NCBI RefSeq assembly: GCF_021631985.1
Contig: NZ_CP070225.1
Location: 3,968,001-4,032,000, forward strand
Source of the DNA: Sandaracinus amylolyticus
Lineage (GTDB): Bacteria; Myxococcota_A; Polyangia; Polyangiales; Sandaracinaceae
Direction: 5' to 3'
DNA length: 64,000 bases
Shown here: piece by piece, positions 17,582-58,752 of the stretch
How positions within the stretch are numbered: position 1 is the first letter of the stretch
Layout of the letters: every line of letters begins with the position of its first letter
Position numbers and translations under genes: made by a program
The notes under the pieces: model-generated
What the model was told of the DNA's origin: nothing
Database searches by the model: none
Seen by the model: the letters and a program-made list of their open reading frames with translations, nothing else

Positions 17582-17654
<73 letters not shown>

Positions 17655-17675
17655 CAGAGATTCCGGAGTGATTAC

Positions 17676-39716: not shown

Positions 39717-41267
39717 GTGGGCGCGATCGCGGCACGAGTCGCACGGATCGAGCGCGAGCGCGCGAAGGTGATCGCACGTCGTGCTCGCTTCGGGCGCTCG
39801 CGCGCGATCGAGCCGGGCCGACTGCTGACGCTCGTCCCGCGCGTCTCGCCGCAGCTGCAGGAGCCCGAGCACCTCGAACCCGTCGCGAACGAGATCGAGC
39901 GCGCGCTCGACGAGACGGTCGAGGTCTGCATCTCGGTCCCGCCCCGGCACGGCAAGACGACGCTCCTCGTGCACGCGATCGTGTGGCTGCTCCTGCGCGA
40001 TCCGACGTGCACCATCCTCTACGCGTCGTACGCGCACGGCTTCGCCGCGAAGCAGGTGCGCAAGGCGATGCGCCTCGCGGTGAAGGCCGGGATCGCGCTC
40101 GGCGACGTGCGCCGGCGCGACGAGTGGACGACGGCCGCGGGCGGCGGCGTGAAGGCCTGCGGCGTCGGCGGGCAGATCACCGGCGAGGGCTTCCGGGTCG
40201 TCTTCGTCGACGACCCGCACAAGAACCGCGCAGAGGCGGAGTCGCGCCGAATTCGCGAGCGCGTGATCGACGGCTTCCGCGAGGACATCTACACGCGCCA
40301 GGACCCGCGCGGCACGAGCGTGTTCGTCGTCCACACGCGCTGGCACGAGAACGACCTGATCGGCGAGCTCACCCGCGCGCAGGCGTCGAACGACGACGTC
40401 GAGGCGGTGCCGCCGTTCAAGCTGCTCAACCTCACCGCGATCAGCGGGGCCGCCAACGACGGCGCGTACGGGCTGCGCGCGCTCGCTCCGAAGCTCTTCA
40501 CGCTCGACCGGCTGCAGCGCCTTCGCGCGCGCGTCGGCGAGTACGGGTGGTGGTCGCTCTACATGGGTTCGCCGCGCCCGCGCTCGGGCGCGGTGTTCGG
40601 CGATCCGAACCTCGTCGACGAGCTCGAGAGCACGGGCACGTTCCGGTACGCGATCGGCGTCGACATCGCGCGCACGGCGCGCACGCGCAGCGACCACAAC
40701 GCCGCCGTCGTGCTGCGCCTGAACGTCGAGACCGGGACGATCGACGTCGTCGAGGCTCTCCGCGAGCAGGGCGTGCTCGCCGACCGGCGCGACGTCGAGC
40801 GCGAGGGCGCGATCGATCCGGGCTTCGCGCGGCGTCTGCACGCGCTCGTCGGGCGCTACCCGGGCGCGCGCGTCGTCATGTACACGGGGCGCACCGAGGA
40901 CCAGCTGCTCGAGCTGCTCGCGAGCCACGCGGACTATCCCGTCTACATCGACGCGTGGCCTGCGACGACGGAGAAGTTCGAGCGCGCGCAGGGATGGGCC
41001 GGCGCATACAACGACCCGCGCGGCCGCGTGCGCATCCCGCGCAAGGCGATGTGGGCGTCGAAGTTCATCGCCGAGCACTCGGCGTTCACGGGCAACAAGG
41101 GCGATCCGGACGACCAGGTCGACGCAGCGGCCGCGGCGTTCGATGCGCTGCGGCAGAGCGACGGCCTCGAAGTGCTCACGCCCTCGAGCGGCGCGCGCCG
41201 CGACGCGGCCGATGCGGGGGTGGCGTCCCGCGCTCGACGCCGCGCCCGCGGCTTCTTCGCGGGGTGA
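39717..41267 (+). CDS. large terminase subunit (TerL)
   Basis: A 516-residue packaging motor. The ATPase domain has Walker A SVPPRHGKTTL (about 75-82) and Walker B VVFVDDPHKN (161-167). The nuclease domain begins at YAIGVDIARTARTRSDHN (an RNase H-like acidic strand) with the late motif DPDDQVDAAAAAF. The PPRHGKT Walker A is typical of a widespread TerL group. GTG start 1 bp after the small-subunit candidate. It powers DNA into the capsid through the portal and cuts the concatemer. Confidence 0.9.
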   Translation: MGAIAARVARIERERAKVIARRARFGRSRAIEPGRLLTLVPRVSPQLQEPEHLEPVANEIERALDETVEVCISVPPRHGKTTLLVHAIVWLLLRDPTCTILYASYAHGFAAKQVRKAMRLAVKAGIALGDVRRRDEWTTAAGGGVKACGVGGQITGEGFRVVFVDDPHKNRAEAESRRIRERVIDGFREDIYTRQDPRGTSVFVVHTRWHENDLIGELTRAQASNDDVEAVPPFKLLNLTAISGAANDGAYGLRALAPKLFTLDRLQRLRARVGEYGWWSLYMGSPRPRSGAVFGDPNLVDELESTGTFRYAIGVDIARTARTRSDHNAAVVLRLNVETGTIDVVEALREQGVLADRRDVEREGAIDPGFARRLHALVGRYPGARVVMYTGRTEDQLLELLASHADYPVYIDAWPATTEKFERAQGWAGAYNDPRGRVRIPRKAMWASKFIAEHSAFTGNKGDPDDQVDAAAAAFDALRQSDGLEVLTPSSGARRDAADAGVASRARRRARGFFAG

Positions 41268-41283: not shown

Positions 41284-43086
41284 CTACGTGCTCGCGACGA
41301 TCGTCGACAGCGCCGCGCGCCCCTCGTCCGTGAGCCAGCCGCCACGGAGCGAACTACCGTACTCCCACCACCCACGGCGAGCCCACTTGCCGAGGACGTA
41401 CGCCTCGCGCTTCGTGACATCGACGAGGTCGTCGGCGCCGTCGCGGAGCACGCCCTTCGGATGCGCGAGCACGCGCTTCGCGAGCCCGACCTCGTCAGAC
41501 TTGCGACCGGTGCCATCATCGCCGTCCTCGAGGCCGCTCGCGGCCGGCGCGGGGCGCGTGCGCTCGATAAACGATGCTCGGCGCCAGCTCCACTGGCGCG
41601 CGGGATTCGGCGCGTCGAGGTCGACGAAGAACACCGTCGTCTCGCTCACCGAGGTGACCTGCAGCCGGTGCCCGTCCTCGGTGTCGATCCACTCGGTCTC
41701 GGGCTGGATCGGGTCCTCTGTGGACTCCTGCTCGGCGAGCGCGTCGCTCGGCTCCGTCGGCTCGCTCTTCGGCCTCGACGCCGCGGCCGCGCGCGCGAGG
41801 TTCACGGCCTCTTGCGGCGTGATCGAGGGCGCGGCGAGTCGAATCATGAGAGCGCCGGTCTCGGGCGTGCGCGTGCCCGCCTCGACGGCTGCGACGATCG
41901 CCGCGACCGCGCTCACCTGCGAGTCGCTGAGCTCGGCGCCCTCCGTCTTCTTGCTCGCGACGACCCACCCGATGCGCGGCACGGGCGCGAACACGCCGCC
42001 GAAGCGGTGGCGATTGAACCAGATCAGGTACTTCGTGAGATCGCGGCGGATCGTCGCGGCGAGCGAGCGCTCGTCGAGCGCGATGCGCGCGTCGACGGTG
42101 GCGCCCCGGCGGCTCTCGACCGACGCGTAGGCGCCGATGCGCGACGGCTGGTTGAGGTCGGTCATGCCGAGGATCGCCTTGGCGATCTCGTTGTTCATCG
42201 CGAGGTCGAACTCTTTCCACGTCCCCGCGTCCTTCATCGTCGACTCGAGCAACTGGAACGCGGCCGGCTCTTCGATGACCGCCGCGTGATCGGCGGAGAG
42301 CTGCTCCATCGACTCGAGGGCCTTCTCGCGGACCTCGCGCGATGCGTCGCGCGGGACCCTCGCCCACATGAAGGGCCATGCGAAGCGCTCGGCGCCGCTG
42401 AGCCAGAACTGCTGGCCCCACTTCTTGAACAAGTAGGGCCAGCACACCGAGCGGAAGACGCCGGTGAGCGCGGGGTATCCGCTCGTCGTCTTCGGCGTGT
42501 GGACGATCCACTTGCCGGGCTCGAGCGGGAGCCCCTCGGCGTGCACGCGCTCGCCGTCGTCGACGAGCCGCGGCTCCCAGGTGCGCGAGTACATGAACCG
42601 GCGCGCGTGGACCCAGTGCAGGCCGACGGGCAGCCACGTGTTGTCCTCGAAGCGCCACTCGATCTCGGCGAACGCAGCGCCCTTCCCGATGCCGTCGAGA
42701 AGATCGTGGATGACGTCGTCGAACGTCGGGTGCTGCTCGATGATGTTCTCGACGAACGCGCGCGCGTCGTCGGCGTAGCGGTCGCGCGCGGGATCGCCGG
42801 TGTGCCCGGGCAGCACCTCGCGGCGCGCGCCGCTCACCGCCGCGATGCGCGTCTCGTACGCGGCGCGCACGCCAGCGTCGATCACCATGCGGTCGCAGAG
42901 ATCGGCCCAGTTCTCGACGCGCCCGCGCTCGGTTTCGCGAAGGATCGATCCGAGCTTCGCGGGCGTGAACTCTGCGAACTTCGAGCTGAGGTCGCGCTGG
43001 TCTCGCACCGTCGCGCGCGCGATGCGGCGCGTGACCGGCCGCACGACGAGCGGCGCTGCGGTCTGCTGCTCTTCGGCGTTGCTCAC
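41284..43086 (-). CDS. Mu gp29-like (DUF935) portal protein, on the minus strand
   Basis: A 600-residue portal protein of the Mu gp29/DUF935 type: ENWADLCDRMVIDAGVRAAY, then TFDDVIHDLLDGIGKGAAFA, EIEWRFEDNTWLPVGLHWVH, TPKTTSGYPALTGVFRSVCW and SVESRRGATVDARIALDERS, the usual order. The last 110 residues (ETEWIDTEDGHRLQVTSVSE onward) look like a separate add-on. It forms the dodecameric portal vertex. Alone in the head module it runs against the other genes: it converges on the terminase and diverges from the protease. The upstream divergent region contains the 38-bp repeated hairpin element. Confidence 0.82.
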   Translation of the reverse strand: MSNAEEQQTAAPLVVRPVTRRIARATVRDQRDLSSKFAEFTPAKLGSILRETERGRVENWADLCDRMVIDAGVRAAYETRIAAVSGARREVLPGHTGDPARDRYADDARAFVENIIEQHPTFDDVIHDLLDGIGKGAAFAEIEWRFEDNTWLPVGLHWVHARRFMYSRTWEPRLVDDGERVHAEGLPLEPGKWIVHTPKTTSGYPALTGVFRSVCWPYLFKKWGQQFWLSGAERFAWPFMWARVPRDASREVREKALESMEQLSADHAAVIEEPAAFQLLESTMKDAGTWKEFDLAMNNEIAKAILGMTDLNQPSRIGAYASVESRRGATVDARIALDERSLAATIRRDLTKYLIWFNRHRFGGVFAPVPRIGWVVASKKTEGAELSDSQVSAVAAIVAAVEAGTRTPETGALMIRLAAPSITPQEAVNLARAAAASRPKSEPTEPSDALAEQESTEDPIQPETEWIDTEDGHRLQVTSVSETTVFFVDLDAPNPARQWSWRRASFIERTRPAPAASGLEDGDDGTGRKSDEVGLAKRVLAHPKGVLRDGADDLVDVTKREAYVLGKWARRGWWEYGSSLRGGWLTDEGRAALSTIVAST

Positions 43087-43138
43087 GAGGCGCGTCGTGC
43101 GTCGCGCGCGAGGCTGAGACCATCATGACGCGCGCGAC

Positions 43139-43176
43139 ATGACGCGCGCGGCATGATGCGCGCGTCATCATTGTCG
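43139..43176. promoter_or_regulatory. 38-bp hairpin element, copy 1
   Basis: Arms ATGACGCGCGC (43139-43149) and GCGCGCGTCAT (43158-43168) flank GGCATGAT. A 13-bp direct repeat CATGACGCGCGCG lies at 43124 and 43138. The 38 bp recur at 58715-58752 with one difference. It lies in the divergent region between the portal and protease genes, 32 bp from the protease start codon. Confidence 0.8.
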
Positions 43177-44897: not shown

Positions 44898-45329
44898 ATG
44901 GCAGCTCTCACGCAGGACAAGAAGCGCGACGTGCTCGGCGAGGATGGCGTCCTCGAGAGCATCGGCGCGGCCGCGAACGCGGTGTGGTTCAACGGCTCGC
45001 TCATCGCGCGCAACGCGGGCGGCTACGGCATCGCCGCGACCAGCGCGGCGGGCCTCGAGATCGTCGGCGTCGCGGACGGCGGCGGCAACAACACCGGCGG
45101 CGCGAACGGCGCGAAGGAGATCAAGCTCCGTCGCGGTCAGGTCGAGGGCATCGCCGCGCCGACGCTCGACATCACCGACGTCGGCCTCGACGCGCGCACC
45201 GTCGACGACGGGACCGTCGGCGGCACCGCCGACACCGCGACCGGTCTGCCCGCGGGCCGCATCGTCGCGTACCGCAACAGCAAGGCCTACGTCGAGATCG
45301 GTCGGTTCCGCGGCGTCAACGCGCCGTGA
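44898..45329 (+). CDS. candidate head decoration protein
   Basis: A 143-residue beta-rich, Gly/Ala/Thr-rich protein (AANAVWFNGSLIARNAGGYG, then EIVGVADGGGNNTGGANGAK and GRIVAYRNSKAYVEIGRFRG), located between the protease and capsid genes, where small capsid decoration or stabiliser proteins are usual. It has its own ribosome-binding site (GGAGAAGG). The name is positional; no family domain was confirmed. Confidence 0.6.
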   Translation: MAALTQDKKRDVLGEDGVLESIGAAANAVWFNGSLIARNAGGYGIAATSAAGLEIVGVADGGGNNTGGANGAKEIKLRRGQVEGIAAPTLDITDVGLDARTVDDGTVGGTADTATGLPAGRIVAYRNSKAYVEIGRFRGVNAP

Positions 45330-45367
45330 GGCCCTGACGCGCCCTCAAGCATCGGGAGACAGACGTC

Positions 45368-46303
45368 ATGGCGATCACGAACTACGCGACGAACTACGCG
45401 GCGGCGACGACCGCGTTCCACCAGGGCTTCGAGGAGCTCTTCAATCGGCAGCGCACGCCGCTGTTCTCGATGATCTGCGAGGAAGTGCCGGTTACCGGGC
45501 TGACGCTCGAGGCCCCCTTCCTCGGCGACGACTCGCCGGTGCGGAAGTGGATCGGGAGCAAGCGCTTCCAGGACCTGCGCTCGTTCCGGCAGAGCTACCC
45601 GGTCGAGCCGTACGAGAAGAGCCTGCGCATCCCCGCGCTCAACGTGCGGCACGACTCGAGCGGCGCGATCGCGCGGCGCATCTCGGCGTTCCTGCAGAGC
45701 GTCGTGAGCTACTTCGACAAGCCGGTGTTCGACATGCTCATGTCGAACCCCGTCGGGTTCGACGGCGTCGCGCTGTGCTCGACCTCGCACCCGTTCGGAC
45801 CGAACGGCGGCGTGCAGTCGAACAAGTCGAACAACCCGCTCTCGCACTCCGAGTACCGCGCCGCCCTGAAGACGATGGGCGGCTGGCTCTCGGAGAACGG
45901 CGAGCCGCTCGAGATGAGCGGCACGGTGCTGCTCGTGGGCACCGACCAGGAGGACATCGCGCTCGAGGTCGCCGGCGTCGACAAGCCGGTGAACGTCGGG
46001 CAGACGGGCACGCTCGACGCGAACGCGAACGTGGTCGGCGTGACGACCGTCAAGAACGTGTTCCAGGGCCGCACGACGGTCATCGTCTCGCCGCGCGTGA
46101 GCGCGACGAAGTGGGCGGTGCTCGACATGAGCAAGCCGGGGCTCGCGCCGCTCGTGATCGGCGTCGCGCGCAAGCCCGAGGCGATCGCGATGGACAAGCC
46201 CGACAGCCCGGCGCGCTTCGAGCGCGACGACTGGGAGGGCTCGATCGAGGCGGACTTCGCGCTCGGCGCGGGCGTCTGGCCGACGCTCTTCGGGAATCTC
46301 TGA
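45368..46303 (+). CDS. major capsid protein, Mu gpT-like
   Basis: A 311-residue protein fitting the Mu gpT-type major head subunit: FEELFNRQRTPLFSMICEEV, then SKRFQDLRSFRQSYPVEPYE, MLMSNPVGFDGVALCSTSHP and VLLVGTDQEDIALEVAGVD, ending AVLDMSKPGLAPLVIG and FERDDWEGSIEADFALGAGV. It makes the icosahedral shell. Length is close to Mu gpT (about 305). A tRNA-like sequence and a hairpin follow its stop. Confidence 0.82.
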   Translation: MAITNYATNYAAATTAFHQGFEELFNRQRTPLFSMICEEVPVTGLTLEAPFLGDDSPVRKWIGSKRFQDLRSFRQSYPVEPYEKSLRIPALNVRHDSSGAIARRISAFLQSVVSYFDKPVFDMLMSNPVGFDGVALCSTSHPFGPNGGVQSNKSNNPLSHSEYRAALKTMGGWLSENGEPLEMSGTVLLVGTDQEDIALEVAGVDKPVNVGQTGTLDANANVVGVTTVKNVFQGRTTVIVSPRVSATKWAVLDMSKPGLAPLVIGVARKPEAIAMDKPDSPARFERDDWEGSIEADFALGAGVWPTLFGNL

Positions 46304-46333
46304 CCTATCGGCCTGCCCGGCTAGGGCCGGCGC

Positions 46334-46381
46334 GTCCGGCGTCGAGAGCGCGAGCAGTCGGGTCCTGCTCGAGCACCGGAC
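46334..46381 (+). other. nested hairpin after the capsid gene
   Basis: GTCCGG (46334-46339) pairs with CCGGAC (46376-46381), and inside it GAGCAG (46352-46357) pairs with CTGCTC (46365-46370) around the 7-nt loop TCGGGTC. It lies between the capsid stop and the tRNA-like gene. It could be a processing or termination structure; no T-run follows. Confidence 0.45.
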
Positions 46382-46386
46382 CTCGT

Positions 46387-46460
46387 AGCGGTGTGGGGGA
46401 GAAGCCGTCCCCGCCGGCCTCATAAGCCGGAGATCGCTGGTGCGAATCCAGCCGCCGCTC
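46387..46460 (+). tRNA. tRNA-like gene, anticodon CAT (Met/Ile2-type), degenerate loops
   Basis: A cloverleaf folds: acceptor AGCGGTG with CGCCGCT (one G-U pair), D stem GGGG/CCCC, anticodon stem CCGGC/GCCGG with loop CTCATAA (anticodon CAT), 5-nt variable loop, and T stem GCTGG/CCAGC. The D loop AGAAGCCGT lacks the usual GG and the T loop is TGCGAAT rather than TTCGAAT, so D-T loop contacts would be weak. No CCA is encoded. It lies in the capsid operon on the transcribed strand. It might be a phage tRNA, a decaying tRNA or a tRNA-mimic processing signal. Confidence 0.6.
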
Positions 46461-46480
46461 TGCCTTTTTGGAGGAGCCAC

Positions 46481-46984
46481 ATGGAGCCGCAGCTGATCCA
46501 GCAGGAGACCCGCCGCCGTGATCTGCGCGCGTACGAGCCGCGCGTGATGCTCGAGATCACCGTCCGCCCGCTCTCGCAGGTGGTCGAGGGACACGTCGTG
46601 CCGCAGGGCACGCACCGCATCCTCGTCGCCGAGTCGCGCGTCGACGCGGTTCGCGAGCTCGTCGAGACCGAGAAGGATCGCGCGATGCTCGCGCAGGCGC
46701 GCGAGATGTTCGAGCGCGAGCTCTCACGCTGGACGGCGACGGGCCAGAAGGCCGAGACGTTCGGGGGCTCGCTCGAGCGCGAGTTCCACAAGATCGCTGG
46801 GCGTGGTCTGGCTCCGATCACGTCGCTGAAGGTGCTCCCCGGCACGCACGCGCCGATCGTCAGCGACGACGAGGTGAAGAGCGCGGGCGTGGCGGCCGCG
46901 ATGCTCTCGCAGCTCGAGCGCATGCAGTCGCGCGGCGACGCCGACGCGAGCGACGAGAAGGGCGCGCGCAGCAAGAAGAGCTGA
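46481..46984 (+). CDS. hypothetical virion/morphogenesis protein
   Basis: A 167-residue protein (MEPQLIQQETRRRDLRAYEP, then ILVAESRVDAVRELVETEKD, then EREFHKIAGRGLAPITSLKV). The start is chosen at 46,481 because GGAGG precedes it by 6 bp, and the longer upstream frame would read through the tRNA-like sequence. It lies between the capsid and DUF1320 genes, so a head-tail connector or minor head role is likely. No family recognised. Confidence 0.6.
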   Translation: MEPQLIQQETRRRDLRAYEPRVMLEITVRPLSQVVEGHVVPQGTHRILVAESRVDAVRELVETEKDRAMLAQAREMFERELSRWTATGQKAETFGGSLEREFHKIAGRGLAPITSLKVLPGTHAPIVSDDEVKSAGVAAAMLSQLERMQSRGDADASDEKGARSKKS

Positions 46985-47002
46985 GCGCGCGACGGAGTCG
47001 GC

Positions 47003-47449
47003 GTGTACCTGACCGAGCAGTATCTGCGCGAGCTCTTCGGGTCGAACGAGGTCTCTGCCCTCTGTCCGACTCCGGCGGAGCTCACGCGCGTGATCGAGGC
47101 GGCGGAAGCCGAGACCGAGACCGCGCTGCAGAACGGCGGGTACCGCTCGGCCGTGCCGAGCTCGGTGTACTCGACCCTCGAGGCGTGTCCGAAGGCGATC
47201 CGCCTGCTCGCGTACGGCGCGTGGATCGAGCTCGCGCACGGCCGCAAGCGCGTCGAGATCCCCGCGCAGTTCCTCGAGTATGTGCGGAAGCTCGATCTCG
47301 TGCGGACCGGGAAGTACGAGATCCCGGGCGTCGAGAAGGACGTCGCGCGCGCGGTCGGCGGCATCCTCTCGAGCGACACGTCGCCGACATCCTCGACCTC
47401 GCGTCAGCAGGTGTTCGGCCGCGGCTCGTTCCGCGACGGTGGGTACTGA
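47003..47449 (+). CDS. DUF1320 / Mu gp36-like head-tail connector
   Basis: A 148-residue protein with the DUF1320 pattern: YLTEQYLRELFGSNEVSALC, then LTRVIEAAEAETETALQNGG, YSTLEACPKAIRLLAYGAWI. In Mu this is gp36, a connector placed between capsid and tail genes, as here. GTG start. The C-terminus (SSTSRQQVFGRGSFRDGGY) is flexible. Confidence 0.78.
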   Translation: MYLTEQYLRELFGSNEVSALCPTPAELTRVIEAAEAETETALQNGGYRSAVPSSVYSTLEACPKAIRLLAYGAWIELAHGRKRVEIPAQFLEYVRKLDLVRTGKYEIPGVEKDVARAVGGILSSDTSPTSSTSRQQVFGRGSFRDGGY

Positions 47450-53288: not shown

Positions 53289-53603
53289 CTACTCGCAGTT
53301 CAGCAGCTCGAGCGCGTCGTCGAGCGAGACGCAGACCACGGTGCCGTCGAGGTTGTCCGCGTGACCGCATCCCGGCATGTCGCCGGGGCCGGAGCACATC
53401 TCGATCGCGCCCCTGCAGAGCGCGCCGTCCTGACGCTCACACACGATGGTTTCGTCGTCCGCGCAGCCCATCGTGATCAGGCACACGTCGGGCGTCGTCG
53501 GCGAGGGGTCCGGATAGCACTCGCACGCTGGGACCGACTTCACCGTCTCGTTCGCGCACGCCACGAGGAGCAGTGCCGCGATCACCCCCACCACGTTTCG
53601 CAT
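53289..53603 (-). CDS. prophage lipoprotein (cargo gene), antisense in the tail module
   Basis: A 104-residue lipoprotein on the strand opposite to the tail genes. Signal and lipobox: MRNVVGVIAALLLVAC. The mature part is rich in Cys (ACECYPDPSP, CLITMGCAD, VCERQDGALC, MCSGPGDMPGC), suggesting a compact disulfide-bonded protein. It lies between the tail-tip gene and the large tail protein gene, with its start only 11 bp from the next plus-strand start. Such inserted reverse genes are often morons expressed in the lysogen; a role in phage exclusion is possible but unproven. Confidence 0.7.
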   Translation of the reverse strand: MRNVVGVIAALLLVACANETVKSVPACECYPDPSPTTPDVCLITMGCADDETIVCERQDGALCRGAIEMCSGPGDMPGCGHADNLDGTVVCVSLDDALELLNCE

Positions 53604-58001: not shown

Positions 58002-58535
58002 TCAGCGCACGTGGAAACGCGCGCGCAGGCGTCGCGACCCACTCATCCCCGCCCGCGCGGGCTCGCTGCTCGTTCGCACGTAGCGGCAGCCACAGTACAC
58101 ACGCGCGATGCCGTCCGCGAACTCGACCTCCCGCGTCACGCAGTCGAGCTCCGGAAGCGGCGGGTCACCAGTGCAGGTCCAACCCGAACTGCATGGCGTT
58201 CCGCTTCCGAAGTCGACCCTTCCACACAGAACCGCGAGCATCGGAGCGCCGCCTTCGCGAGCCTCCGGGAAGGGCACCTCGGCGTACCAGTTCGTCGACT
58301 GCGTTTCGTCCCACGACGCGTCGTTGCCGAGTCGACTCACGAGCGTCCGCTCGATCGAGCACTCCGCATCAATCGTCACCTGCGCGTCGGCGTCGTCGCT
58401 CGCGCCATCGCGTAGCGACTCGCCCGCGTCGACCATAGCGTCACCGAGATGCTCGACGACGTCGCTACCGCACGCCCACGCGCCCGCCGCGATCGCCGCA
58501 ACGAGCGCACCCGCTGTCCACCGTGGCTTCGTCAT
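58002..58535 (-). CDS. prophage lipoprotein (cargo gene), antisense before the fibre genes
   Basis: A 177-residue lipoprotein (signal TAGALVAAIAAGAWAC). The mature part has a Cys-rich segment (CGRVDFGSGTPCSSGWTCTG, then LDCVTREVEFADGI, VYCGCRYVRTS) that suggests disulfide bonds. It is convergent with the tail-tip gene and divergent from the next gene, with the second copy of the 38-bp hairpin element in the intervening 248 bp. Likely a moron expressed in the lysogen. It is not similar to the lipoprotein at 53,289 beyond general style. Confidence 0.7.
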   Translation of the reverse strand: MTKPRWTAGALVAAIAAGAWACGSDVVEHLGDAMVDAGESLRDGASDDADAQVTIDAECSIERTLVSRLGNDASWDETQSTNWYAEVPFPEAREGGAPMLAVLCGRVDFGSGTPCSSGWTCTGDPPLPELDCVTREVEFADGIARVYCGCRYVRTSSEPARAGMSGSRRLRARFHVR

Positions 58536-58711
58536 GACCGCGAGGCTCGCACGGCTGCTCTCGTGCTCGCAAACCGACCGCGCGCGCATGGGCCGTACGA
58601 CGCGCTCACCTCGCGAACTCGCACCAGAGCACGAGCGCCGCACTCTCGGACGGCGCCACGAGATACAGGGACGCACCGCATCCAAGCATGCTCGCACGCG
58701 ATGGCGTCCGG

Positions 58712-58752
58712 ATGATGACGCGCGCGGCATGGTGCGCGCGTCATCATTGTCG
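58712..58752. promoter_or_regulatory. 38-bp hairpin element, copy 2
   Basis: Perfect 14-bp arms ATGATGACGCGCGC (58712-58725) and GCGCGCGTCATCAT (58734-58747) flank GGCATGGT. Positions 58715-58752 match copy 1 at 43139-43176 with one difference. It lies in the divergent region, 31 bp upstream of the start codon at 58,784. The rest of that 248-bp region shows no gene. Confidence 0.8.

Follow-up and report, generated by a model that had tools for sequence, protein, structure and literature searches.

A candidate initiator-type tRNA gene with a matched A18.G55 elbow in a prophage head module

A tRNA gene among head genes

The window, the whole stretch of 64,000 nucleotides analysed here, covers bases 3,968,001-4,032,000 of a 10.96 Mb bacterial genome. 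Pfam and PHROGs searches on the neighbouring genes reveal a prophage whose head module is of Mu type and contains one tRNA gene (Table 1). As a preliminary description of the locus had noted, this gene lies directly after the capsid gene on the transcribed strand: it starts 84 nt past the stop of the Mu-like_gpT gene and ends 20 nt ahead of the next ATG. Neither promoter-like nor terminator-like sites were found in 45300-47100, so the tRNA is probably made with the head-gene transcript. No flanking hairpin was found near it. The product of the downstream gene has a 43% identical counterpart directly after the capsid gene of another genome of the order, G181.

Table 1. Features of the head module and parts of the tRNA gene (positions in the window)
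Feature	Positions	Strand	Basis
Terminase	39717-41267	+	Pfam/PHROGs
Mu-type portal gene	41284-43086	-	Pfam/PHROGs
Virion protein	44898-45329		Pfam/PHROGs
Major head protein of the Mu-like gpT family, immediately before the tRNA	45368-46303	+	Pfam Mu-like_gpT, E 1.5e-21; PHROGs
Candidate initiator-type tRNA-CAU gene with A18.G55 elbow and discriminator C73; CCA not encoded	46387-46460	+	ARAGORN, Rfam, parsing
Acceptor stem, 5' strand AGCGGTG (A1 G2 C3 G4 G5 U6 G7)	46387-46393	+	sequence
D loop AGAAGCCGT; A18 = 46403, G19 = 46404	46400-46408	+	sequence parsing
Anticodon loop CTCATAA; CAU at 46421-46423	46419-46425	+	ARAGORN, sequence
T loop TGCGAAT; G55 = 46442, C56 = 46443	46441-46447	+	sequence parsing
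Acceptor stem, 3' strand CGCCGCT (66-72), and C73	46453-46460	+	sequence
Shine-Dalgarno-like GGAGGAG between the tRNA and the next gene	46470-46476	+	sequence
Downstream gene, start ATG at 46481, without family match	46481-46984	+	Pfam, PHROGs

The only other tRNA gene in the 64 kb, a tRNA-Gly(ccc) (17582-17655; 74.3 bits), lies 28.7 kb away and outside the head module; it is a possible insertion target. The high local density of tRNA genes that marks a tRNA array is absent from the window. A satellite attachment site at the head-module tRNA was considered and dropped: the gene sits in mid-prophage and supporting signs are absent.

Three further observations concern the prophage. The portal gene runs on the minus strand amid plus-strand terminase and head genes; in relatives with a portal match, the portal is co-directional with the other head genes, and the orientation in the window looks like an inversion. 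A repeated, partly palindromic sequence (ATGACGCGCGCGGCATG...) occupies divergent intergenic regions at 43102-43171 and 58692-58747, and is perhaps a shared promoter or operator. Two minus-strand reading frames with lipoprotein-like stretches (53289-53603 and 58002-58730) stand among the plus-strand tail genes, and may be lysogeny or cargo genes.

A complete cloverleaf

ARAGORN, run on the 64-kb window, calls the gene a tRNA-Met(cat). The preliminary description had proposed covariance-type scoring, and Rfam RF00005 matches the gene over model positions 1-71 of 71 with 52.1 bits (gathering cut-off, 29; E 2.6e-8). Its cloverleaf with seven acceptor pairs and anticodon CAT is thereby confirmed, and its wording of the loops is exact: the D loop, AGAAGCCGT, lacks GG, and the T loop reads TGCGAAT. 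All 21 of 21 stem pairs are present (acceptor, 7, one of them U6.G67; D, 4; anticodon, 5; T, 5), so the broken stems or truncated ends of a pseudogene are not seen. The folding energy is -35.3 kcal/mol (z -2.23), and 4 of 200 shuffles do as well; the significance of the tRNA is carried by its loop and stem pattern, not by this energy.

The RF00005 consensus has G18-G19 and U55-C56, which the score does not require. The window tRNA has A18-G19 and G55-C56. It is a single-copy gene, and ranks 52 of 56 by bits among the tRNAs of its own genome, at the low-scoring end.

Head modules of the order

When the capsid protein was searched by tblastn against viral and genome contigs, no relative emerged; relatives were therefore drawn from 183 genomes belonging to the same order as the window. 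These hold 12 other gpT-type capsid places. Eleven of them lack a tRNA within the 15 to 19.5 kb covered; the nearest capsid relative, in G181 (59% capsid identity), has none. The exception is G077, where a tRNA with a shortened D arm lies on the same strand, flanked by the genes for a minor head protein and the head protease, with the start of the gpT capsid region about 1.7 kb further downstream. With G077 and the window each carrying one, tRNAs of the same class (CAU anticodon, G55) occur twice in head modules of the order, at different spots. The position, first described as unusual, is so when compared with G181, but not when compared with G077.

Elsewhere, Streptomyces phage Manuel has an annotated tRNA array just before the capsid region, and crAss-like cr60_1 an annotated tRNA before terminase. 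Around 88 distinct viral G55 tRNAs, 133 flanking open reading frames were scanned for a common neighbour gene. None was found; the top family (homing endonucleases, a peptidase and others were seen) accounts for at most 3 of the 133, which argues against a general link of G55 tRNAs to head genes.

The preliminary description also suggested a mimic used for RNase P cleavage or operon processing, in which a tRNA-like signal cuts the head-gene transcript and the tRNA is a by-product. The setting, with co-directional genes on both sides at distances of 84 and 20 nt, would suit such a signal. A conserved CAU loop and initiator marks (below) are needless for processing, however, and homologous operons do without the tRNA. 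Excision by RNase P is expected of any tRNA at this place, positive support for a mimic was not found, and we regard this reading as very improbable.

The A18.G55 elbow

Related tRNAs were sought with a pattern that combines the CTCATAA anticodon loop with a G55 T loop (GTGCGAATC) and leaves the D loop free. It is present in at least 120 viral contigs, and in 18 contigs from a set of 84,980 species genomes; with U55 instead of G55, the pattern likewise occurs in at least 120 viral contigs. The 262 matches from the pattern scans and the window were parsed, and 241 were kept (21 were discarded because they ran into contig edges or had weak stems). Unique sets among the matches listed comprise 100 G55 tRNAs (viral, genome and window) and 96 U55 tRNAs.

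Residues 18 and 55 change together. At D-loop lengths of 7, 8 and 11, at which position 18-19 is fixed, residues 18-19 are AG in 90 of 90 G55 tRNAs and GG in 41 of 45 U55 tRNAs among the matches listed; these sequences are not phylogenetically independent. The other 10 G55 tRNAs among the matches listed (loop length 9) contain AG and lack GG, and GG occurs somewhere in the D loop of 95 of the 96 listed U55 tRNAs. Whole D loops can differ by one base, for example AGTCTAGTCGT with G55 and AGTCTGGTCGT with U55. U8-A14 and G15-C48 are present in all 100 listed G55 tRNAs, and G19-C56 and U54-A58 are retained by sequence beside A18.G55. As judged from this covariation and these retained contacts, the 18-55 elbow contact is swapped rather than lost: G18 with pseudouridine 55 gives way to a matched A18 with G55. 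The earlier expectation that tertiary contacts would be poor fails on the same evidence.

This bears on whether the gene is a phage tRNA on its way to decay, without function. Its rank of 52 among 56, the absence of a tRNA from all but one of the 12 other capsid places and the shortened D arm of the G077 copy are what a decaying gene might show. Decay would not make matched changes, however; here the 21 stem pairs and all other core contacts are intact, and the paired A18/G55 change is common to a large family with at least 100 distinct members. We consider decay distinctly unlikely.

The coupling extends beyond CAU tRNAs. ARAGORN found 1339 unique tRNAs in 239 viral loci, 90 of them with G55: 85 CAU tRNAs, a number enriched through the choice of loci, and five among the 1105 others. 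Across the 1940 unique tRNAs in the loci collected, GG is present in the D loop of 1670/1682 with U55-C56, versus 28/229 with G55-C56; a Fisher test on a nearly identical count of GG against residue 55 gives p 2e-212, a value that ignores kinship among the tRNAs. The presence of AG anywhere in the D loop is a weak test, because 1195 of the 1682 U55 tRNAs also have it; the sound measures are the presence of GG and the fixed-position count. An independent viral CTCATAA sample, drawn with base 55 ignored, yielded 102 readable loci of 120, 99 with intact stems. Five of these 99 have G55, which makes G55 a minority form among viral CTCATAA tRNAs.

Residues 19 and 56 covary too: T loops with U56 mostly accompany GA in the D loop, and those with A56 accompany GT, as expected for a Watson-Crick pair. 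Phage tRNAs with such swaps (TTT with GA; TTA with GT) include those at L214, L120, L035, L131, L126 and L061, among others.

Older selection studies of D- and T-loop combinations may have encountered A18.G55. Searches of open-licence PMC papers turned up none on the pair among their listings and excerpts, and it is absent from the excerpted parts of reviews on the elbow (PMC4810234), T-loop modification (PMC7912444) and non-canonical tRNAs (PMC7609411). The first of these, in its excerpted part, describes the 18-55 contact as resting on the universally conserved pseudouridine 55. The window tRNA is ordinary in kind and surprising in detail, its elbow variant being apparently new.

Initiator marks

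In bacterial initiators, an unpaired 1-72 is the signature required by the formylase, and the formylation determinants include G2-C71, C3-G70 and G4-C69 (PMC9976931, excerpt). The initiator anticodon stem has G-C pairs, of which G30-C40 is gripped by the 30S head (PMC11497404, excerpt). The window tRNA shares with bacterial tRNA-fMet the CAU anticodon in a CTCATAA loop; G2-C71, C3-G70 and G4-C69; R11-Y24, as G11-C24; G29-C41 and G30-C40; and a weak 1-72. It differs from tRNA-fMet in that 1-72 is a weak Watson-Crick pair, A1-U72, rather than unpaired; residue 73 is C rather than A; the third of the anticodon stem pairs 29-41, 30-40 and 31-39 is C31-G39 rather than G-C; and the elbow is A18/G55. 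By sequence it looks initiator-type, with most but not all of the marks. Because three of them are off (A1-U72, C73 and C31-G39), we write "initiator-type" and not "tRNA-fMet".

An ordinary elongator tRNA-Met, or a lysidine-type tRNA-Ile2, that tolerates an elbow variant and supplements elongation is a less probable identity. A CAU anticodon in a CTCATAA loop suits all three CAU tRNAs, the window tRNA has a paired 1-72 and C73, and, among the CAU tRNAs with G55, at least the seven from Verrucomicrobia are elongator-like (G1-C72 in most; C11-G24). Elongator tRNA-Met has Y11-R24 and a strong 1-72, however, where the window tRNA has G11-C24 and A1-U72; its R11-Y24, its acceptor trio G2-C71, C3-G70 and G4-C69, and its G30-C40 all match the initiator. 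In Escherichia coli tRNA-Ile2 (lysidine), the corresponding acceptor pairs are C4-G69 and C5-G68; those of the window tRNA, G4-C69 and G5-C68, mismatch. Outside the D loop, 46/65 positions agree with the host initiator, compared with 36 and 32 for two further CAU tRNAs of the host. An elongator or Ile2 role therefore appears unlikely. The first label, "tRNA-Met/Ile2", was right that this is a phage CAU tRNA, but the initiator type fits better than either name.

Of the tRNAs compared, the closest is the CAU tRNA of Pseudomonas phage D3: 50/65 positions are identical, and 21/22 in the T arm, where the sole difference is position 55. This tRNA and that of Escherichia phage JohannJBalmer, a phage relative annotated as tRNA-fMet, have the same arms and initiator marks as the window tRNA. 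Unlike it, the CAU tRNAs read from 21 phage records are nearly all U55 with GG and none has G55; the best-ranked blast matches opened (whole-tRNA and 3'-part queries) in search of named isolates with A18.G55 were U55 types. An uncultured phage record, L308, has a tRNA-Lys with G55.

The G55 family as a whole has a similar cast. Among the matches listed, and with the acceptor register picked by a score that favours paired bases, 98-100 of the 100 G55 tRNAs form each pair from 2-71 to 7-66; 1-72 is unpaired in 74 and other than G-C or C-G in 90; and G2-C71, C3-G70 and G4-C69 occur in 93, 92 and 81, respectively. R11-Y24 is present in 70 and G30-C40 in 89 of the same listed 100. The trio of weak 1-72, R11-Y24 and G30-C40 is lacking in 34 of these 100, and is present in 53 of the 96 U55 phage CAU tRNAs among the matches listed. 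Since U55 phage CAU tRNAs bear the same marks, the elbow swap is separate from initiator likeness. Judged by such marks, initiator-type tRNAs are common in phages.

A proposed role in translation initiation

On balance, the window gene is probably a functional initiator-type prophage tRNA, cut from the head-gene transcript and used to start translation. Transcription would read through the tRNA from the head genes; RNase P and the 3' processing enzymes of the host would excise it; and CCA would then be added. The host initiators (L321) likewise lack an encoded CCA. The CAU anticodon would direct charging with methionine, and formylation would permit the tRNA to start translation in late gene expression. 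Each step, from co-transcription with the capsid genes through processing, charging and formylation to use in initiation, is one that we infer. An L-shaped fold is expected, because A18 is matched with G55 and the G19-C56 contact persists along with the rest of the core.

It follows from chemistry that G55 cannot become pseudouridine and that A18 cannot become Gm18 (2'-O-methyl-G18). Our guess is that the swap persists because host enzymes or nucleases recognising G18 and U55 then miss the tRNA, or because its folding no longer depends on host modification; escape from modifying enzymes, escape from elbow-reading nucleases and modification-free folding would each explain it. Enzymes that recognise G18 and U55 are known: TrmK did not accept even a G18U-U55G tRNA, which was designed to reinstate the pair (PMC9801127, excerpt). 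The alternative pair is natural, recurs and is tightly coupled, and it offers matched variants with which to probe the 18-55 contact and its host modification.

Altered elbows are also met in tRNAs that do not translate. The window tRNA might be a decoy for a host tRNA nuclease, or an amino acid carrier like the staphylococcal cell-wall tRNA-Gly. Staphylococcal non-translating tRNA-Gly carry G55. In the excerpted part of PMC4052509 they too have lost G18-G19, but with UU or CU at 18-19 and with glycine, whereas the window tRNA has a matched A18, with AG and G19-C56 kept, and a CAU anticodon. A dedicated enzyme was not found among the neighbouring proteins scanned. We give a non-translational role little credence.

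Phage-borne initiator-type tRNAs, to which this gene points, contrast with a report that phages generally avoid tRNA-fMet when it is a target of the host nuclease VapC (PMC10264068, excerpt). Were the swap to shield tRNAs from host nucleases, it would amount to a counter-defence built into the tRNA body and not the anticodon loop.

A parallel tRNA pool?

Arrays of tRNA genes on mobile elements supply accessory tRNAs beside a complete host set (PMC5966550; PMC12803027, excerpt). G55 tRNAs occur in array-like clusters; the window instead has a lone tRNA in a head-gene operon. Among the 183 genomes of the order, 156 have the U55 CAU pattern and five the G55 pattern: at the window, in the G077 head module, and in dense tRNA clusters of G120, G146 and G147 (L312, L313 and L314). 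These clusters hold 35, 35 and 19 tRNAs, with G55 in 8, 3 and 4, respectively; they mix U55 and G55 forms with several anticodons. The window's own genome also has a small group of low-scoring tRNAs (L315; 9952407-9952976), including a tRNA-Leu(gag) with G55 and CAG in the D loop.

In tRNA clusters of Verrucomicrobia/Opitutaceae on seven contigs (L143, L150, L151, L154, L155, L157 and L159), 115 of 115 tRNAs have G55. AG is present in the D loop of 107 and an encoded CCA in 111, and 28 anticodons are represented. In five of the genomes with these clusters, a search gave 58 to 65 tRNA matches apiece, with many scoring over 70 bits, and in four of the five a U55 CAU tRNA lies elsewhere. From these counts, the G55 clusters look like second tRNA sets.

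A broader hypothesis, which we put forward tentatively and hold as possible rather than probable, is that mobile and accessory elements keep a parallel pool of elbow-swapped tRNAs outside host modification and elbow-reading nucleases. A18.G55 would preserve the L and leave the G19-C56 face exposed while removing the two bases that many host enzymes read. Some Verrucomicrobia arrays are wholly converted. If so, an element could translate, and even initiate with a tRNA of the window type, while the host pool is under attack. In three of the four Verrucomicrobia contigs examined, a LysR-type gene adjoins the cluster.
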